This document shows positions 1 to 8,606 of a DNA stretch of 10,466 bases, piece after piece. Under the pieces are notes generated by a model that worked only from the letters and a program-made list of their open reading frames with translations, made no database searches and had not been told where the DNA came from. The stretch comes from Alphaproteobacteria bacterium (GTDB taxonomy: Bacteria; Pseudomonadota; Alphaproteobacteria; Rhodobacterales; Rhodobacteraceae): assembly GCA_030424705.1 (NCBI GenBank), contig JAUHWJ010000027.1, positions 1-10,466 of the forward strand, written 5' to 3'. Position numbers and translations under genes: made by a program. The first letter of the stretch is position 1, and every line of letters starts with the position of its first letter.

Positions 1-3000
1 GCCGGACCGTCGGCATGGCGATGCCCTCGGCGGAGCGGCAGGCCGCGCTCCTGATGCAGATCCGCCGGGAGGCGCAGTTCGACCCGGACGATCTCGCCTT
101 CCTCGAATGCCACGGCACCGGCACGCCGGTCGGCGACCCGATGGAGGCGCACGCGATCGGGGAGGTGTTCGGCCGCGCGCGGGCGAAGCCGCTGCCCATC
201 GGTTCGGCCAAGACGAATTTCGGGCATCTCGAGCCCGCGTCGGGGCTCGTCGGCCTCCTCAAGGCGCAGATGGCGCTGGAGCGCGGCGTCTATCCCGCCT
301 CGCTCCACCTCAAGGAGCCGAACCCGAACATCGCCTTCGACGACCTCAATCTCGAAGTCGCGGCGGAGCCGCTGGAGATCGAGGCGCGGGAGCGGCCCTG
401 GCTCGCCGGCGTCAATTCCTTCGGCTTCGGCGGCGCGAACGCCCATGTCCTGATCCGCCAGCCGGAAGCCGGCGAGGCGCATCCGCCCGCCCCCGCGCCC
501 CGCGCCCGCGCGCTCATCCTCTCCGCGGCGAGCCGGGAGAGCCTGGCGGAAATGGTCACGCGCTGGCGGGAGCAGCTGGGAACGGCGGAGGAGGCCGAGG
601 CCGACCTCCTCGTCAACGCGGCCGCCCACCGCCGCAGCCGCGCGGCGCATCGCCTCGTCGCCCTCGGCGACGGCGCAGCGGAGATCGCCGCAAGCCTCGC
701 CGCACATGAGAGCGGCGCGCAGCCGGCCATCACCGGGCAGCGCGTCGGCCGCGGCGAGAAGACGGCCTTCGTCTTCGGCGGCAACGGCTCGCAATGGGCC
801 GGGATGGGCCTCGACCTCTATGAGGAGAACCCGGCCTTCCGCGCCGCCTTCGACGAGGTCTCCCGCCTCTTCCGGCAGAAGTCCGACATCGACCTCGCGG
901 CGCTCCTCGCTTCGGACGAACTCGGGGAGCTGTTGGTCGAGAGCCGGGTGGCGCAGCCGATCCTCTTCGCCGTCCAGGTCGGCGTCGTGAAGGCGCTGGA
1001 GGCCGAGGGGTTGAGGCCGGACGCCGTCGCCGGCCATTCGGTGGGCGAGGTCGCCGCCGCCTGGGCCGCGGGCGTGCTTACGCTGAAGGACGCCGTGCAT
1101 CTCATCCGCACCCGCTCCACAGCCCTCGAATTCATGCGGGGCATGGGCGGGATGGCCGCCGTCCTCGCCGGGGAGGAGGCGGTGGAGGAGGCGCTCGCCG
1201 AATACGGCGACGCCTCGATCACCGTGGCGGGGGACAATTCGCCCCGCTCCTCCACCATCGCCGGCCCAGTGGAGAGCCTGAAGGGTTTCGCCAAGTTCGC
1301 CCGGAAGAAGCGCATCGCGGCGAAGCTGCTCGACATCGACTATCCCTATCACAGTCCGGCGATCGACCCGATCCGCGCGAAGCTGATCGCGGACCTATCC
1401 GACCTCGCGCCGCGCGAGGGCCGGGCCGTTTATGTCTCCTCGACCAGCGGGCGGGAGGCGCCGGGCGTGGCGCTCGACACGGAATACTGGTGGCGCAACG
1501 CCCGTCAGCCCGTGCGCTTCCGCGAGGCGGTGAGCGCGCTGGCGAAGCTCGGCTGCGGCGTCTTTGTCGAGATCGCGCCGCGCCCCGTTCTGCAATCCTA
1601 CGTCACCGACACGCTGGAGCAGCTTGGCTGGGGCGCCGCCGTCGTCACCACGCTGGAGCAGAACCCGCGAACGCCGCTCACCGCCGCCGCCATCGCCGCG
1701 CGCGCGCTCGCCCACGGCGCGAGCCTCGACGATTCGCGCTTCTTCGGCGCGCCGGCGCCTTATCGCGGCGGGCTGCCGGGCTACGCCTGGCGTACGACCG
1801 AGTTCCGCATTCAGCCGAGCGCGGAGGCGGTGGACTTCTTCGGACTCGGCGGCGTCGCCCCGCTTCTCGGGGCGCGGCTCAGGGCGGGCGAGGGCGTCTG
1901 GCGCTCGGTGATCGATGTAGCGCTCCATCCCTGGCTCGCCGATCACAAGGTGGACGGCGCGATCGTCTTCCCCGCCGCCGGCTTCGCGGAGATGGCGCTC
2001 GCCGCCGGGCGGGAGGTCCACGGCGCCGCCGAGCTTTCGGAATTCGAGATCATCCGCCCCATCGTGCTGGACGACGGCGCCGCGGTCGAGGCGCGGACGA
2101 GCCATGACGCGAGCATCGGGCAGATCCGGATCGAGAGCCGCCGCCGCCTCGCCGGCGGCGAATGGGGCCTGAACGCCTTCGGCACGCTCCGCCGCACACC
2201 ACCGGGCGAGGCCGCCGCCTCGCCGGGAGAGATCCGCGGCGCCATGAAGCTGAGCGGGCGGCAGCTCTACCAGTCGCTAGAAGGCTACGGCCTCGCCTAT
2301 GGGCCCGCCTTCCAGCGCATCCGCTCGCTGAAGGTCAACGGCGTCTCCGCCGAGGCGCAGCTGACCGAGGGCGCGGCGCCGGAGCCGGGCCTCGCGCTCG
2401 ACCCGACCGTGCTCGACGGCGCGATGCACGCCATCTTCCCGCTCATCCGCCGCGCCGCGGGGGACCGGGCGCTGGCCGCCGGCACGGCCTTCCTGCCCGT
2501 GCGCATCGGCCGCATCCGCCTATACGGGCGCGCGGAGCCGGCCGCCTCTGCGCATGTCCGCCTCGTGAAGCTCAGCCCCCGCGGGGCGGAGGCGGCGCTC
2601 GACCTCCTCAGCGCGGAGGGAAGGCTCGTCGCCTCCGTATCCGGGCTCCGGCTGAAAGCCGTGCGCCTGACCCGCGGGGCGCGGGAGACGGGCCGCGTCT
2701 GGCGGCAGGCGATGATCCGCCTGCAGGACGAGGCCGGCGCGGCGCGGCCGGAGGCGTGGGAAGACCCCGCCGCGCGGCTCCGCTCGCTCGACCTCGTGGC
2801 ATCCGAGGCGCCGGAACCCGATGTAGGTTCGCTTCTTGTGGATGCGCTTTCGCGCCGTCTTGCGTGGGATCTGGCGAATCGCTTCGCCGAGGCTGGTACA
2901 CGGCGGGTCGAGATCGCCGCGGCGCTCGACCTCGATCCCTCGGCCCGCTCGCTTCTCGCCCGCGCCATGCTGGCGCTGGAGGAGGACGGGGCCTTCGAGG

Positions 3001-6000
3001 CGGAGGCGCTCGGCGCCGGCCGGCTCGCGGCGGAATGCCCCTATCCCCCGGTCGAGGAGCTGGCGCAGGCGCTGGCCGAGGAGGCGCCAGCGCGGGCCGA
3101 GGAGCTGATGGCGCTCCTCCGGCTCGAGGCGGAATTGCCCGCCCTCCTCTCCGGCGGCCTCCGCGAGAGCGCGCCGCCGCAGGCCGCGGCGGACATCGCG
3201 CCCGCCTCCCGCGCCGTATGGGCGGCGGCGGAGCGCGCCTTCGTGGACATTCTCGCCGAATGGCCGGCCCGACGGCGCCTCGGCGCGCTCATCGTCGGCG
3301 CGGCGCCCGCCGGCGTCGCCGCGCGCCTCGCCGCCGCGCCGGCGCTGGATCGCCTCGTCGTCACCCATCCCGACCCGCGCGTGGTGGAGACCATGCGGCA
3401 GACCCTCCCGGCCTCGCCCCGGCTCGCCATCCTCCCGTTCGAGGCGGCGACAGAAGCGTCGCATGACGCGGTTCTTTCCGCCGACGCGCTGCATCGCCTC
3501 GGGCGCGAGGGGCTCTCCGCGCTCTCGGGCTCGATCGCGCCCGGCGCGCTGCTCCTCGCGGTCGAACGGGCTCCCGACCTCGCCTCGGACCTTCTGCAGG
3601 GCGCGGCGGAGGAATGGTGGGCCGCCTCGCTGACGCCGGAGGCGCCGGTCGGCCGGCGGATGCCGGCGGAGGACTGGCGCGCCATGCTGGAGGAGGCGCG
3701 GCTCGAAGCGGCCGAGGCGCTGCCGCTGCGGGAGGAGCGGACGGAGCTTTTCGCGCTCGTAGCGCGCGGCCGGCGGGGCCTTCCCGCCGCCCATGCCGAG
3801 CCGGGGCGGAAGGGCGTCATCGTGGTCCTGCACGGCCCGGAAGAGGCCTCCGCCGCGGCCGAGATCGAGGCGGCGCTCGCCGCCGTAGGCCGCGAGGTCC
3901 GGCTCGCACCGGGCGGCGTCGCGCCCGAGGGGCTCGAGGCCGGATGGGAGGCCGTGTTCCTCGCCGGCCTCTACACACAGGGCTCCGAAATGGAGCGGGC
4001 GGCAGCGCGCGTCGCCGCAGCGAAGGCCGCGCTGACGGGCCCGCGCCCCACCCGGTTCTGGATCGTGACGCGCGGCGGCCGCCCGGCCGCAGCAGGCGGC
4101 GCGGAGGCGCGGAGCGCGGCCGAGGCGGCGCTGCACGGGCTCGGCCGCGTGCTCGCCAACGAGCCCGGCCAGCCCGAAATCCGCATTCTCGATTTCGACC
4201 CGGCGATCGAGACGGAACAGCTCGTCGGCCATCTCTGCGAGGAACTCGCCGCCCCGGGCGAGGAGCGCGAGATCGTGCGGGACGATGCGGGCCGCGCCGC
4301 GCCCCGGATCGAGGCGGGGCCGGACCTTCCCGCCATCGCCGCGCGCGCCCGGCTCGGCGCGGAGGCGGCGCGGGTGCTCGAGATCGGCCAGCAGGGCGCC
4401 TTCGACAGCCTGCGCTGGGCCACGACGGCGCGCCGCGCGCCGGCGCCGGACGAGGTGGAGATCGAGGTCCGCGCCGCCGGCCTCAACTTCCGCGACGTTA
4501 TGTGGGCGCAGGGCCTCCTGCCCGAGGAGGCTCTGGAGGACGGCTTCGCCGGCGCGACGCTCGGCATGGAGTGCTCCGGCGTGGTCGCCCGCGCCGGTGC
4601 GGCGAGCGGCCGGCAGGTCGGGGAGGCGGTGATCGCCTTCGGCCCCGCCTGTTTCGCGACCCACGCCACCATCCCGGCCCGCGCCGTCGCCCCTCTTCCC
4701 GCGGGCACGGATTTCGACACGGCCGCCGCGGTGGCGACGATCTTCATCACGGCGCAATACGGCCTCGTGGAGCTGGCGCATCTCAGGTCGGACGAAACCG
4801 TGCTGATCCATGGCGGCGCCGGCGGCGTCGGCCTCGCTGCGATGCAGATCGCCCGGCGGATCGGCGCGCGCATCCTCGCCACCGCCGGCTCCCCGGCGAA
4901 GCGGCGGCTGCTGAAGGCGCTCGGCGCCGATGCGGTGTTCGACAGCCGGTCCCTCGCCTTCGCGGACCAGGTGATCGCCGCGACGGGCGGCGAGGGCGTG
5001 GACGTGGTGCTGAACTCGCTCTCGGGCGAGGCGATGGAGCGCTCGCTCGCCTGCCTCCGGCCCTTCGGCCGCTTCGTCGAACTCGGCAAGCGCGACTACT
5101 ACGCCAATTCCCCGCTCGGGCTGCGGCCCTTCCGGCGGAATCTCACCTATTTCGGCGTGGACGCCGACCAGCTCCTCTCCGCCCGGCCCGAACTGGCGGA
5201 TCGGCTGTTCCGCGACCTTGCCGAGGGCTTCTCCTCGGGCGCCTTCGCGCCGCCGCCGGTGCAGGTCTTCGAGGCGGAGGAGGCGGTGGACGCCTTCCGC
5301 CTGATGCAGAAATCCGGCCATGTCGGCAAGATCGTCATCCGCCCGCCGGCGGCCCCGGCTCTCGCGCCCGCCTCGGCGCCGGAGATCGGCGAGGGCGGCT
5401 GGCTCGTCGCCGGGGGAACGGGCGGCTTCGGCTTCGAGACGGCGCAGTGGCTCGCCGCCAAGGGCGTGAAGCGGCTCTGGCTCGTCTCCCGCTCCGGCGC
5501 GCCCGCCAAGGAAAGCCGCGCCGCGCTGGCGCAGATGCGCCGCGCCGGCGCCGAGGTCACCTTCCACGCGGCCGACATCGCTGACGAACGCGCCCTCGCC
5601 GACCTGATGGCCGGGATCGCGGCGGAGGGCGTCCCGCTCAGGGGCGTCGTCCATTCCGCCATGGCGCTCGACGACGCGCTGTTCGAGACGCAGGACGCCG
5701 CGCGGATGGAGGCGGTCATGCGCCCGAAGATCGCCGGCGCGGAACTGCTTGACCGGGCGACCCGCGGCCTCGGCCTCGACCATTTCATCGTCTATTCCTC
5801 TGTAACGACGCTTTTCGGCAATCCCGGCCAGTCGGCCTATGTCGCCGCCAACGCCGCGCTCGAAAGCCTCATGGCCTCCCGCCGCGCGGCGGGCGAGCCG
5901 GGCCTCGCCGTCGGCTGGGGCCCCATCTCCGATGTCGGTATCCTCGCGCGGGACGAGGCGGTGCGCGAGATGCTCTCGAAGCGGATGGGCGGAACGCTGC

Positions 6001-6587
6001 TCACCGCCGCGGAGGCGCTGGAAGGGTTGGAGACGATCCTCGCCGCCGGCGCGCCGGAGCCCGCCGTCACCTGGGCCCCGCTCCGCTGGGGCATGCTCGC
6101 CGCGGACCTGCCGCTGATGAAGACGCCGCTTTTCGAGCGTGTCGAGACGGCGCGGGAGGCGGGCGGCGGAGAGGGCGCGATCGACCTCGCCGCGATGATC
6201 GACGGGCTGGACGACATGGCCGCGCTTAAGGCGATCATCGAGTTCCTTGCGGCGGAGACGGGCCGCATCCTCCGCCAGCCGCCAGGCGAGCTCGATCCGC
6301 GCCGGCCGCTGACGGAGATGGGCTTCGACAGCCTGATGGCGGTCGACCTGAAGATGGCCGTGGAGGAGCGGATCGGCGCCACCCTGCCGCTCATGTCCCT
6401 CTCCGAAGGCGTCGGCCTCGCCGACCTCGCCCGGAAGCTGCTGGACGAGGCGCGCGGCCGCGCCGCCGCCTCGGACGGCGCGGCGGTCAACGCCGTCGTG
6501 GCGCAGCATGTCGCCGGCGCCATCGACGAGGACGACCGGAAGGTGGTCGAGAAGCTGGCGCGCCAGGCGGAGAGCCTGAAGGGATGA
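1..6587 (+). CDS. Highly reducing type I polyketide synthase, 5'-partial (KS-AT-DH-psiMT-ER-KR-ACP)
   Basis: Builds a reduced acyl chain on its own ACP from carboxylated extender units. Reading is in frame from base 3 (RTVG..., a conserved KS segment), so the start and the KS active-site Cys lie upstream. Residues below are counted from the Met at base 15. KS to ~147, with both catalytic His (HGTGT H33, NFGH H71). AT ~250-550: GHSVGE Ser342, Arg367 at Ser+25 (fits a carboxylated extender), His446 in YPYHS. DH ~613-885: HxxxGxxxxP His644, LDGAMH Asp801. Degenerate methyltransferase ~886-1255. KR/ER structural region ~1265-1440. ER ~1452-1777 with NADPH motif HGGAGGVG at 1599. KR ~1793-2020: GGTGGFG, Lys1905, Ser1929, Tyr1942, and LDD (Asp1886/1887), which indicates a B-type KR. 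ACP ~2055-2145 with GFDSL Ser2106. A charged tail of ~45 residues follows. No thioesterase is present. A single ACP plus a full reducing loop suggests iterative use (inference). The downstream oxoamine synthase is the likely releasing enzyme. Confidence 0.96.
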   Translation, partial: RTVGMAMPSAERQAALLMQIRREAQFDPDDLAFLECHGTGTPVGDPMEAHAIGEVFGRARAKPLPIGSAKTNFGHLEPASGLVGLLKAQMALERGVYPASLHLKEPNPNIAFDDLNLEVAAEPLEIEARERPWLAGVNSFGFGGANAHVLIRQPEAGEAHPPAPAPRARALILSAASRESLAEMVTRWREQLGTAEEAEADLLVNAAAHRRSRAAHRLVALGDGAAEIAASLAAHESGAQPAITGQRVGRGEKTAFVFGGNGSQWAGMGLDLYEENPAFRAAFDEVSRLFRQKSDIDLAALLASDELGELLVESRVAQPILFAVQVGVVKALEAEGLRPDAVAGHSVGEVAAAWAAGVLTLKDAVHLIRTRSTALEFMRGMGGMAAVLAGEEAVEEALAEYGDASITVAGDNSPRSSTIAGPVESLKGFAKFARKKRIAAKLLDIDYPYHSPAIDPIRAKLIADLSDLAPREGRAVYVSSTSGREAPGVALDTEYWWRNARQPVRFREAVSALAKLGCGVFVEIAPRPVLQSYVTDTLEQLGWGAAVVTTLEQNPRTPLTAAAIAARALAHGASLDDSRFFGAPAPYRGGLPGYAWRTTEFRIQPSAEAVDFFGLGGVAPLLGARLRAGEGVWRSVIDVALHPWLADHKVDGAIVFPAAGFAEMALAAGREVHGAAELSEFEIIRPIVLDDGAAVEARTSHDASIGQIRIESRRRLAGGEWGLNAFGTLRRTPPGEAAASPGEIRGAMKLSGRQLYQSLEGYGLAYGPAFQRIRSLKVNGVSAEAQLTEGAAPEPGLALDPTVLDGAMHAIFPLIRRAAGDRALAAGTAFLPVRIGRIRLYGRAEPAASAHVRLVKLSPRGAEAALDLLSAEGRLVASVSGLRLKAVRLTRGARETGRVWRQAMIRLQDEAGAARPEAWEDPAARLRSLDLVASEAPEPDVGSLLVDALSRRLAWDLANRFAEAGTRRVEIAAALDLDPSARSLLARAMLALEEDGAFEAEALGAGRLAAECPYPPVEELAQALAEEAPARAEELMALLRLEAELPALLSGGLRESAPPQAAADIAPASRAVWAAAERAFVDILAEWPARRRLGALIVGAAPAGVAARLAAAPALDRLVVTHPDPRVVETMRQTLPASPRLAILPFEAATEASHDAVLSADALHRLGREGLSALSGSIAPGALLLAVERAPDLASDLLQGAAEEWWAASLTPEAPVGRRMPAEDWRAMLEEARLEAAEALPLREERTELFALVARGRRGLPAAHAEPGRKGVIVVLHGPEEASAAAEIEAALAAVGREVRLAPGGVAPEGLEAGWEAVFLAGLYTQGSEMERAAARVAAAKAALTGPRPTRFWIVTRGGRPAAAGGAEARSAAEAALHGLGRVLANEPGQPEIRILDFDPAIETEQLVGHLCEELAAPGEEREIVRDDAGRAAPRIEAGPDLPAIAARARLGAEAARVLEIGQQGAFDSLRWATTARRAPAPDEVEIEVRAAGLNFRDVMWAQGLLPEEALEDGFAGATLGMECSGVVARAGAASGRQVGEAVIAFGPACFATHATIPARAVAPLPAGTDFDTAAAVATIFITAQYGLVELAHLRSDETVLIHGGAGGVGLAAMQIARRIGARILATAGSPAKRRLLKALGADAVFDSRSLAFADQVIAATGGEGVDVVLNSLSGEAMERSLACLRPFGRFVELGKRDYYANSPLGLRPFRRNLTYFGVDADQLLSARPELADRLFRDLAEGFSSGAFAPPPVQVFEAEEAVDAFRLMQKSGHVGKIVIRPPAAPALAPASAPEIGEGGWLVAGGTGGFGFETAQWLAAKGVKRLWLVSRSGAPAKESRAALAQMRRAGAEVTFHAADIADERALADLMAGIAAEGVPLRGVVHSAMALDDALFETQDAARMEAVMRPKIAGAELLDRATRGLGLDHFIVYSSVTTLFGNPGQSAYVAANAALESLMASRRAAGEPGLAVGWGPISDVGILARDEAVREMLSKRMGGTLLTAAEALEGLETILAAGAPEPAVTWAPLRWGMLAADLPLMKTPLFERVETAREAGGGEGAIDLAAMIDGLDDMAALKAIIEFLAAETGRILRQPPGELDPRRPLTEMGFDSLMAVDLKMAVEERIGATLPLMSLSEGVGLADLARKLLDEARGRAAASDGAAVNAVVAQHVAGAIDEDDRKVVEKLARQAESLKG
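2670..3780 (+). other. Degenerate C-methyltransferase-like domain inside the PKS (psi-cMT)
   Basis: This is the segment between DH and ER, about 370 residues. It follows the order of a PKS C-methyltransferase: an N-terminal helical part (LARAMLALEEDG, then ELMALLRLEAELPALLSGG), a class I Rossmann-like core, and a WW-containing segment (EEWWAAS) before the last strands (ELFALVARG). Key S-adenosylmethionine signatures are lost. The expected acidic residue and GxGxG loop after strand 1 read GALIVGAAPAG (residues 1090-1100), and the strand-2 region reads VVTHPDP. The HDAVLSADALHRL and APGALLLAVER segments still resemble strands 4 and 5. Inference: a structural, catalytically dead remnant, as in animal fatty acid synthase, so no alpha-methylation by this domain. 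Confidence 0.7.
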
Positions 6588-6591
6588 GGGG
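6586..6591 (+). promoter_or_regulatory. Ribosome binding site for the oxoamine synthase, overlapping the PKS stop
   Basis: GAGGGG begins inside the PKS stop codon and sits six bases before the ATG at 6598. This supports that start and suggests the two genes are translated from one message, with probable translational coupling. Confidence 0.65.
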
Positions 6592-6597
6592 CGGCGC

Positions 6598-7950
6598 ATG
6601 ACGGCGATCGACAAGGACCGGCACGCGCTGGTCGACCGGCTGCGCAAGGTGCGCGAGGCGCGGGCGCGCGGCGGCCGCCCCGCTCCGGCGCCTGCGCGCG
6701 TCGCCGGCGCCGCGCCGAAAGCCTTCGATTTCTCCACCCTGCCGATCTTCGAGCAGATGCGCTTTCAGGAGGCGGTGGGCCGCAGTCTCGGCATCGGCAC
6801 GCCGTTCTTCCGCCAGATCGACTCGCGGGACGGCGCGCGCTGCGTCATCGACGGCGAGGAGCGGATCAACTTCGCCTCCTACGACTATCTCGGCCTCGGC
6901 TCCCATCCGGATGTGCGCCGCGCCGCCGTGGCGGCGGCGGAGGAATGGGGCGTCTCCGCGAACGCCTCGCGCCTTGTCGGGGGCGAGCGGCCCTATCACG
7001 GCGCGCTGGAGCGGGCGGTCGCCTCGGCCTATGGCGTCGACGCGGCTGTCGCGATGGTCTCCGGCCATGCGACGAACGTGACGACGATCGGCGCGCTGAT
7101 CGGGCCGAAGGACCTGATCCTGATGGATCAGCTCATCCACAATTCGATTTCGGAAGGCGCGCGGCTCTCCGGCGCGGCGCGGCTCACCTTCCCCCACAAC
7201 GACTTCGACTGGGTGGACGAGACCCTCGCCCGCGTGCGGGACCGGTACGAGCGCGTGCTCATCGTCGTCGAGGGCCTCTACTCGATGGACGGCGACTTCC
7301 CCGACCTTCCCCGCTTCGTGGAGATCAAGGCGCGGCACGGCGCCTGGCTGATGGTGGACGAGGCGCACGCCTTCGGCGTCCTCGGCGCGACGGGGCGGGG
7401 GCTCGCGGAGCTTCAGGGCGTCGATCCGCGCAGCGTCGAGATCTGGATGGGCACGCTGTCGAAAACGCTGGCCGCCTGCGGCGGCTATGTCTGCGGCTCG
7501 GAGGCGCTGATCGCCTATCTGAAGCACAAGGCGCCGGGCTTCGTCTTTTCCGTCGGACTCGCCGCGCCCGTCGCGGCGGCGGCGGAGGCGGCGGTGCGGG
7601 CGATGCTGGCGGAGCCGGAGCGCGTGGCGCGGCTCCGCGCCAACGGCCTCCGCTTCCGCGAGCGGGCGGCGGCGGCGGGCCTCGATGTCGGACTTTCGGA
7701 GGGCTACGCCGTCACGCCGGTGATCATCGGGGACAGCCCGCGCGCCGTCGTCGCCGCGGACCGGCTCTTCAAGCGGGGGATCAACGCGCTCCCGATCATC
7801 TTCCCCGCCGTGCCGGAACAGCAGGCGCGCATCCGCTTCTTCCTCACCTCCGACCATGAGGAGGCGGAGATCGACCGCGCGGTGGACGAGACGGCGGAGG
7901 TCGTGAAGTCGCTCGAAGGCGTCGATCTCTTCGCGAGCCTCAGGGACTAG
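6598..7950 (+). CDS. PLP-dependent alpha-oxoamine synthase (AONS/SPT/Fum8-like), PKS-associated
   Basis: Fold-type I PLP enzyme of 450 residues. The family condenses an amino acid with an acyl thioester, losing CO2, to give an alpha-aminoketone. Visible family motifs are NFASYDYLGL, the SRLVGG...H segment, SGHATN, His181 in MDQLIHNS (the PLP-stacking position), EGLYSMDGD, Asp254 and His257 in DEAHAFG (cofactor N1 and O3'), Lys289 in GTLSKT (Schiff-base lysine), and Arg413 in the PAVP...RIR segment (carboxylate-binding position in SPT). An N-terminal extension of ~75 residues precedes the core. Its first part is basic and Ala/Pro-rich and could contact the PKS. The gene starts 10 bases after the PKS stop, so the natural acyl donor is inferred to be the PKS-bound chain rather than a CoA ester. 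The amino acid used (Ser, Ala, Gly or other) cannot be read from the sequence. A primary-metabolism role (biotin, threonine catabolism, heme) is less likely given the coupling. Confidence 0.92.
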   Translation: MTAIDKDRHALVDRLRKVREARARGGRPAPAPARVAGAAPKAFDFSTLPIFEQMRFQEAVGRSLGIGTPFFRQIDSRDGARCVIDGEERINFASYDYLGLGSHPDVRRAAVAAAEEWGVSANASRLVGGERPYHGALERAVASAYGVDAAVAMVSGHATNVTTIGALIGPKDLILMDQLIHNSISEGARLSGAARLTFPHNDFDWVDETLARVRDRYERVLIVVEGLYSMDGDFPDLPRFVEIKARHGAWLMVDEAHAFGVLGATGRGLAELQGVDPRSVEIWMGTLSKTLAACGGYVCGSEALIAYLKHKAPGFVFSVGLAAPVAAAAEAAVRAMLAEPERVARLRANGLRFRERAAAAGLDVGLSEGYAVTPVIIGDSPRAVVAADRLFKRGINALPIIFPAVPEQQARIRFFLTSDHEEAEIDRAVDETAEVVKSLEGVDLFASLRD

Positions 7951-7998: not shown

Positions 7999-8457
7999 TC
8001 ACGCGGCGGCGGGGGATCGGCGCCGCGATGCGAAGCCGAGCGCGCCCAGCCCGCCCAGCATGAGCCAGATGCCGGCCGGAAGCGGCACGGCGCCAACGGG
8101 CGGCTGCGCCTCCGGGTCGAAGACGCGGAAGTCGAAGACGCCGGGGATCGGCGCGATCACGTTCAGGCCGCCCCGGAAGTTGATCGCCTCGCCGGTCGCA
8201 TCCGAGATGCCGGCGATCTCGCTGAAATTGACGACCTCGTCGTAGAAGACCGGCCCCGACGGCGAGAAGAACGTGAAGCCGGAGAAGCCGGTCAGCTCGT
8301 CGAGCGAGAAGAGCATGTCCCCGTCCGCGTCGAAGAAGTCGATCTCGTAGTTCGAGAAGATCGCGGCCCGGGAGATCGCCTCGAGCCGGAGCGAGGCCGC
8401 CTCGGCGGCTCCGGCGGCGACACTGGCGGCGAGAAACGCAATGGCTGCGGGTTTCAT
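7999..8457 (-). CDS. Small secreted VPLPA-CTERM protein with an EF-hand-like loop
   Basis: A 152-residue protein of unknown function. Residues 1-20 form a Sec signal peptide: MKP, a hydrophobic Ala-rich core and an AEA-A cleavage site. The C terminus is a VPLPA-CTERM signal: VPLPA at 124-128, one membrane segment ~129-143, then Arg145-147. In this family the tail is known to direct export and processing by a dedicated exosortase, not seen in this window. Between them lies a short globular part with a 12-residue loop DADGDMLFSLDE (43-54) whose acidic residues at positions 1, 3, 5 and 12 match an EF-hand calcium site. The start at 8457 was chosen over an in-frame ATG 14 codons upstream because the signal peptide begins there and GAGGGA lies 7 bases before it. 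It runs the same way as xdhB but ~150 bases away, so it is probably transcribed separately. Confidence 0.85.
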   Translation of the reverse strand: MKPAAIAFLAASVAAGAAEAASLRLEAISRAAIFSNYEIDFFDADGDMLFSLDELTGFSGFTFFSPSGPVFYDEVVNFSEIAGISDATGEAINFRGGLNVIAPIPGVFDFRVFDPEAQPPVGAVPLPAGIWLMLGGLGALGFASRRRSPAAA

Positions 8458-8464
8458 CCTGTTT

Positions 8465-8470
8465 TCCCTC
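8465..8470 (-). promoter_or_regulatory. Ribosome binding site deciding the start of the VPLPA-CTERM gene
   Basis: On the - strand GAGGGA sits seven bases before the ATG at 8457. It fixes the start at the Met that opens the signal peptide, rather than the upstream in-frame ATG at 8499. Confidence 0.7.
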
Positions 8471-8519
8471 TGCAATCGGCGCCCCGACATGGCCGACAAG
8501 GGAAATCTAAGGCGCGCGG

Positions 8520-8545: not shown

Positions 8546-8606
8546 TGTCGATTCGTTGCGCGAAGCTTAATGAAGACGCAGCGTCAGCCCCGCCCGGATC
8601 CTGCGG

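Follow-up and report, generated by a model that had tools for sequence, protein, structure and literature searches.

We analysed a stretch of 10,466 bases from an alphaproteobacterium of the Rhodobacteraceae (GenBank assembly GCA_030424705.1), hereafter the window, which is one whole contig (JAUHWJ010000027.1) of a genome in 654 contigs (66.6% complete, 3.2% contamination; G000 in our numbering). Two genes on its forward strand form the system described here: a polyketide synthase (PKS), whose 5' end is lost at the contig edge, and an alpha-oxoamine synthase (AOS) directly behind it. A very close relative, genome G001 (96.3% DNA identity to the window over 8,592 bases), supplied the full-length PKS used for motif scans. 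The following features were assigned:

3..6587, + strand: PKS, fully reducing one-module type I, RkpA/SgaA type, 5'-cut (open frame, Pfam, full-length relative)
6..653, + strand: ketosynthase (KS) C-terminal domain and KS-associated extension (Pfam PF02801, PF16197)
768..1703, + strand: acyltransferase (AT), GHSVG motif (Pfam PF00698; motif scan on the full-length G001 relative)
1860..2666, + strand: dehydratase (DH), HxxxGxxxxP motif (Pfam PF21089, PF14765; motif in the G001 relative)
4446..5339, + strand: enoylreductase (ER) (Pfam PF08240, PF00107, PF13602)
5397..5930, + strand: ketoreductase (KR) (Pfam PF08659)
6246..6434, + strand: acyl carrier protein (ACP), GxDS site, single ACP (Pfam PF00550; GFDSL motif in the G001 relative)
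6586..6591, + strand: GAGGGG, ribosome-binding-like, sharing two bases with the end of the PKS stop and set 6 bases ahead of the AOS ATG (read from the sequence)
6598..7950, + strand: AOS, RkpG/SgaB type, 450 aa (open reading frame, Pfam PF00155, alignment, trees)

The PKS frame is open to the contig edge over 2194 aa, and the N-terminal half of the KS, with the active-site Cys, is missing because the contig begins there. The G001 PKS is 2472 aa at full length, carries the KS motif DTACSSS and matches the entire 2194-aa window part at 98.2% identity. Pfam profiles gave the domain order KS-AT-DH-[unassigned, ~590 aa]-ER-KR-ACP, and no Pfam model for a thioesterase or terminal thioester-reductase domain matched the PKS at an E-value of 0.01. 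The interval between DH and ER (window 2667-4445) is without a Pfam match and may be a decayed methyltransferase or a structural region. Open frames of 6.6 kb and 1.35 kb with such a domain order are not chance. The window's one-module reducing PKS, with no releasing domain matched and followed on the same strand after 10 bases by the ATG of an AOS (6598), has the layout of the pair type named after RkpA-RkpG of rkp-1 in Sinorhizobium meliloti and PfSgaA-PfSgaB of Pseudomonas fluorescens. A preliminary description of the window, made from its letters, had reported this PKS, the AOS 10 bases on and a ribosome binding site overlapping the PKS stop; open reading frames and Pfam bear out the first two, and the GAGGGG stands where the third was placed.

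The AOS retains H181, D254, H257, K289 and R413, all in invariant columns of a 17-sequence alignment, and K289 is by its position in the family what we take to be the pyridoxal phosphate lysine. Its score fell below every NCBIfam cut-off against which it was measured, the best being that for bioF, the 8-amino-7-oxononanoate synthase (AONS) model (345.7 of 426.45 bits); two models for 2-amino-3-ketobutyrate CoA ligase (KBL) gave 293.1 of 460 and 249.6 of 493 bits, the model for 5-aminolevulinate synthase (ALAS) 216.0 of 338.55 bits, and three models for serine palmitoyltransferase (SPT) 276.9 of 640, 263.8 of 500 and 185.7 of 670 bits. Canonical SPT was rejected on these cut-offs, and housekeeping KBL, AONS and ALAS were rejected on cut-offs and trees together. 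In a FastTree tree of 119 AOS-family rows (118 distinct, with the reference rows L138 (ALAS) and L141 (SPT) labelled without a model scan), all 91 rows counted as PKS-linked, among them three loci without an upstream PKS and the locus of genome G003 twice (L012, L022), fell into one group with a support of 0.785. An IQ-TREE tree of 64 of these rows gave that group an SH-aLRT of 97.2 and an ultrafast bootstrap (UFBoot) of 67. The group holds the S. meliloti rkp-1 AOS, with which the window AOS is 50.2% identical, as well as enzymes from Pseudomonas, Caballeronia and Paraburkholderia, and both trees keep the window AOS apart from all KBL, ALAS, AONS and bacterial SPT references; clustering with KBL, AONS or ALAS, which would have spoken against the preliminary description, was not seen.

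To follow the pairing across relatives, we took the best 80 of 529 confirmed AOS relatives in named genomes. A PKS match lies upstream of the AOS and on the same strand in 77 of these 80 loci, so the pair is conserved, as the preliminary description required. Of the three exceptions, L055 has its PKS match downstream of the AOS, L092 has one on the opposite strand, and the 11 kb of L074 gave no PKS match. Among frame-called loci with an upstream PKS, the gap between the two genes runs from -29 to +117 bases except in L063 (847) and L100 (879), both of which contain an LpxC-like gene match. Both activities can also be fused: a 1607-aa coding sequence of Streptomyces anthocyanicus matches the PKS over its first 888 aa and contains the AOS match as well, and in Planktothrix a feature label ("type I PKS"), and only that label, suggests the same fusion. 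The AOS is patchily distributed, with matches in 5 of 61 genomes among relatives (E-value 1e-80) and 8 of 190 genomes of the class (E-value 1e-85), each count including the window's genome. Given the 77 paired loci and the grouping of the AOS with the S. meliloti rkp-1 enzyme, the arrangement is one already described: it resembles RkpA-RkpG and shares the design of PfSgaA-PfSgaB. One locus, L052, is on a contig titled Mycobacterium sp. KBS0706 and is of proteobacterial type, with matches to a short-chain dehydrogenase/reductase (SDR) and KpsS/C; the organism name is probably wrong.

Within the genus, the complete genome G002 shows what can lie beside the pair: its AOS converges on an SDR gene, after which come two PF05159 genes and KpsT-, KpsM- and KpsE-like genes. 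The PF05159 genes are well over the Pfam cut-off and are the only capsule assignment above its cut-off. Our KpsS/C query from G002 was an 847-aa frame whose first half is antisense to the second PF05159 gene, and its matches still mark real PF05159 genes. Contig C605 of the window's genome holds together a counterpart of the G002 SDR (71% identical), two PF05159 genes and, at the contig end, a KpsT counterpart; contig C114 of G001 holds the SDR and capsule counterparts and adds those of KpsM and KpsE. Relative to the G002 order, the break is between SDR and AOS. The SDR and KpsS/C-type gene thus adjoin the pair in G002 and lie outside its cluster in the window's genome and in G001, and because they are on other contigs we class the window as a PKS-AOS pair, not as a complete rkp-1 cluster.

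Neighbouring genes were counted in the 55 long loci (at least 17 kb), with score thresholds set by eye. A capsule gene (a KpsS/C, KpsE, KpsM or export match) was found in 39 of them and a KpsS/C class match in 32; an SDR was called in 31, no more than 600 bp downstream of the AOS in 27 of these, and an LTA-synthase-like (lipoteichoic acid synthase-like) gene was found in 14. Control stretches of 20 kb around SPT (12), AONS (5), KBL (2) and ALAS (1) genes gave no capsule gene (0/20) and one SDR call (1/20). Across the 190 genomes of the class, PF05159 (E-value 1e-30) is present in 6 of the 8 with the AOS and in 6 of the 182 without it (Fisher p 4e-7; p 5e-6 leaving out the window's genome). The AOS and a PF05159 gene are at most 10 kb apart in 4 of the 6 class genomes that have both (G077, G116, G195 and G222), for which random placement would give ~0.05 genomes. 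This within-genome distance is a better test than the control stretches and points the same way as the neighbour counts: the AOS family is tied genomically to SDR and ABC-transporter-type capsule genes.

The explanation that best accommodates these results, and which we consider likely overall, is a chain builder and off-loader of the RkpA-RkpG / SgaA-SgaB type that makes a sphingoid base and has a tie to capsule. The PKS would build a long saturated acyl chain iteratively on its single ACP, and the AOS would take this chain from the thioester and condense it with an amino acid, most likely serine, with loss of CO2, to give a 3-keto sphingoid base. The separate SDR, on the other contig beside the two PF05159 genes, would most likely reduce the ketone to a sphinganine-type base. 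In P. fluorescens MYb115, the PfSgaA and PfSgaB genes were shown in 2025 to be both needed for C24-C28 sphinganines (PMC12134224). By analogy with that pair and with the chemistry of the family, from which the saturated chain, serine and sphinganine are drawn, the product of the window pair is very probably a sphingoid-type aminoketone, in agreement with the product that the preliminary description had proposed.

Whether the lipid of the pair has a role in the capsule, either anchoring it or being the acceptor on which KpsS/KpsC-type enzymes act, is to our mind evenly balanced, the argument being one of gene neighbourhood only. In Escherichia coli, KpsS and KpsC build the linker of 3-deoxy-D-manno-octulosonic acid (Kdo) on lyso-phosphatidylglycerol. 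We tentatively propose, with somewhat less confidence, that in a broad group of Proteobacteria a PKS-made sphingoid base could replace lyso-phosphatidylglycerol as the KpsS/KpsC acceptor for the Kdo linker and so be the lipid anchor of ABC-transporter-dependent capsules. PKS, AOS and SDR would make the base, an LTA-synthase-like enzyme would in some species add a phosphoglycerol head, and KpsS/KpsC-type enzymes would use the base, perhaps with this head, as acceptor. On the rhizobial side, a genome paper describes rkpA and rkpGHIJ as seemingly responsible for the synthesis, modification and transport of a lipophilic molecule, a possible carrier or anchor of the capsule (PMC3557214). It is from this statement and the PfSgaAB sphinganines that we infer a possible KpsS/KpsC acceptor in many relatives. 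If true, many Proteobacteria that make capsules and are not regarded as sphingolipid producers would have sphingolipid-like anchors.

A number of observations weigh against this explanation, in whole or in part. On the side of the enzyme, the UFBoot value of the PKS-linked group is weak, the nine AONS references fail to cluster together, and the trees were built without PfSgaB, Fum8, PigH, SxtA and CqsA. The window's genome also encodes a canonical bacterial SPT (G000:C305:854-2029, L133; 648.6 bits against NF047599, cut-off 500), as do G001 and G002, so that two sphingoid-base routes may coexist. As a separate observation, a scan of 10 frames around the SPT gene of G002 allowed two to be named (E-value 1e-30), both as TRAP transporter proteins. 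Product and substrate of the window's pair are predicted ones. On the side of the genus, the Kps-type names were given to matches under the NCBIfam cut-offs (KpsM 91.1 of 300, KpsE 214.9 of 437.5, KpsS 187.9 of 600 bits); in the window's genome the pair does not share a contig with its SDR and capsule partners, the 42-kb G001 contig that carries the pair has no capsule-gene match, and in G003, of the same genus, the pair and the SDR and PF05159 genes are likewise on different contigs. An RkpI-like LTA-synthase relative was not found (tblastn, 1e-8; best no better than E 0.3) in 20 PF00884 loci of the 22 matches listed from G000-G003 and G015, the window's genome being incomplete, and these loci gave no candidate for a phosphoglycerol step in the genus. 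On the side of the counts, 16 of the 55 long loci have no capsule gene match; the 80 loci cannot be treated as independent, having been picked by similarity to one AOS, with several from shared genera and with the G003 locus itself among them (L022); and 14 of the 20 control stretches come from genomes without a PF05159 match, which leaves only 6 fair controls (0/6). In the class, 6 of the 12 genomes with PF05159 are without the AOS, 2 of the 8 with the AOS (G176 and G225) are without PF05159, and G061 and the window's genome carry the two on different contigs. The AOS matches of G061 and G176 are only 43-44% identical and may belong to another subfamily.

Some of these points would suit an explanation in which the product is a free metabolite, sphingoid or aminoketone, of the sort described for PfSgaAB, and in which the nearness of capsule genes in relatives is functionally meaningless for the window's lineage. 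PfSgaAB leads to free sphinganines and, as proposed from masses 154 Da heavier, to phosphoglycerol sphingolipids, and the main text of that report is silent on capsule, containing no word beginning capsul, rhizob or RkpA (PMC12134224); the location of the window's pair away from Kps genes and the 16 long loci without a capsule gene fit as well. We nevertheless regard this as rather unlikely in view of the 39 long loci with a capsule gene, the short distances in four of six class genomes, and the fact that the SDR and capsule genes found next to the pair in G002 still have close counterparts in the window's genome. A tie between rkp-1 genes and capsule is likewise stated in the titles of papers on rhizobial genetics cited in PMC7902896 and PMC3557214.

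A different choice of amino acid, alanine or glycine, would make the product a 1-deoxy sphingoid or a simple aminoketone. Sequence leaves the amino acid undefined, and an enzyme below the curated SPT, KBL, AONS and ALAS cut-offs could accommodate such a choice; D254, H257, K289 and R413 are identical in the window AOS and a Pseudomonas homologue (L169), but they also occur in the KBL, ALAS and AONS rows and so do not decide it. PfSgaB, however, has SPT activity on acyl-CoA and serine near-exclusively, with hardly any on alanine or glycine (PMC12134224), by analogy with which serine is the probable substrate here and the other amino acids are improbable. That the AOS is a housekeeping AONS, KBL or ALAS that chances to follow a PKS is hardly credible: its best score is for bioF and it shares ~33-38% identity with KBL and ALAS genes from its genus, but it is below the bioF cut-off and outside the references in both trees, separate ALAS and KBL genes exist in G001, G002 and G003, and the pairing with a PKS is conserved.

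Downstream of the AOS and on the opposite strand, a gene for a small protein with a VPLPA-CTERM sorting signal (7999-8499; TIGR03370) is followed by xdhB, for the xanthine dehydrogenase large subunit; both are excluded from the PKS-AOS system. At window position 8592, contig C14 of G001 holds ~514 additional bases that the window is without; there, with the VPLPA-CTERM gene on one side and xdhB on the other, G001 has a DUF1203 gene of 155 aa. Upstream of the PKS the window ends at the contig edge, and the G001 neighbour at this position is a divergent glycosyltransferase family 2 (GT2) gene; a thioesterase or reductase upstream of the PKS was rejected on this ground, in line with the preliminary description. 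A GT2 related to that upstream of the pair in G001 and G002 was found in 9 of the 80 loci (L060, L066, L072, L075, L080, L081, L082, L086 and L096), six of which have no capsule gene match, two (L060 and L082) a borderline export-gene match and one (L086) a KpsS/C match.

Taken as a whole, the preliminary interpretation is partly supported. The cassette that it described is not a self-contained one, since SDR and capsule genes are frequent partners, and its statement that it knew of no characterised product for the arrangement in this bacterial group is overtaken by RkpA-RkpG, known from rhizobial capsule genetics, and by PfSgaA-PfSgaB, for which a sphinganine product has been shown. The pair adds one more case to an enzyme partnership already described, and the capsule link is an addition beyond the preliminary description. 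A limited literature search, too small to call the link unpublished, found no title joining capsule and sphingolipids. Set beside its relatives, the pair suggests an answer to a long-standing puzzle, namely the nature of the lipid that rkp-1 supplies to the rhizobial capsule and the reason for having a PKS in a capsule locus at all, and a sphingoid anchor, if true, would join the lipophilic molecule of rkp-1 to the phosphoglycerol sphingolipids of PfSgaAB.

Among known systems, the release of a PKS chain by an AOS is familiar from fungal Fum1-Fum8 and SphA. The chain named aminoacyl transferase sphA scored 99.6 bits with the window AOS, far below bacterial SPT (200.7) and the best PDB match (216.9), so it is not the nearest relative. 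The Swf-type PKS of sponge symbionts was considered and rejected, its partners being R/ST and radical S-adenosylmethionine genes with no AOS (PMC3908369). The same source groups wcbR, from the WcbR-type PKS of Burkholderia capsule clusters, with rkpA. In Caballeronia, Paraburkholderia and Burkholderia lata there are loci with a PKS and with an AOS from the same group as the window AOS, and we tentatively set these beside the WcbR type. Unlike the window, Caballeronia and Paraburkholderia have an LpxC-like deacetylase gene between PKS and AOS and an LTA-synthase-family gene upstream of the PKS. This position of the deacetylase hints at an amino-sugar step; the gene is annotated UDP-3-O-acyl N-acetylglycosamine deacetylase (L170:10898-11824 and L171:10890-11804).

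One of the closest described systems is RkpA-RkpG in rkp-1 of S. meliloti, also present in R. tropici, with the same PKS type, the AOS directly after it and then an SDR. Between the G001 PKS and that of S. meliloti rkp-1, identity is 38.9% over nearly the full length and 53% over the first 450 aa. In S. meliloti Ak57, where the record carries generic product names and we assigned the Rkp names by gene order, a polysaccharide export gene comes first, and behind it PKS, AOS and SDR stand in a row with an LTA-synthase-like frame (PF00884) and a PF05159 gene, in keeping with the order published for rkp-1, where rkpU is upstream of rkpA (PMC7902896). Three features of the record (L168, CP090106.1) may be noted: the PKS is labelled merely SDR family oxidoreductase, the LTA-synthase-like frame of 512 aa (14367-15905) has no gene entry in the PLSDB table, which is known not to be complete, and the title of this 3.7-Mb record, pSymB, may be wrong, rkp-1 having been reported as chromosomal. 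The window's species differs from rkp-1 in having its SDR and capsule genes on another contig and in the absence of an LTA-synthase-like RkpI relative among the loci searched.

PfSgaA-PfSgaB resembles the window pair in that both are an iterative one-module PKS and an AOS in a two-gene unit (PMC12134224); the product has been shown for the Pseudomonas pair alone, and the likeness is one of gene layout. The same report counts 6,101 clusters homologous to PfSgaAB, dominantly in Burkholderia, and proposes an SDR resembling 3-ketodihydrosphingosine reductase (KDSR), SgaC, as the ketone reductase of the next step after PfSgaAB, the step that we would assign here to the SDR on contig C605.

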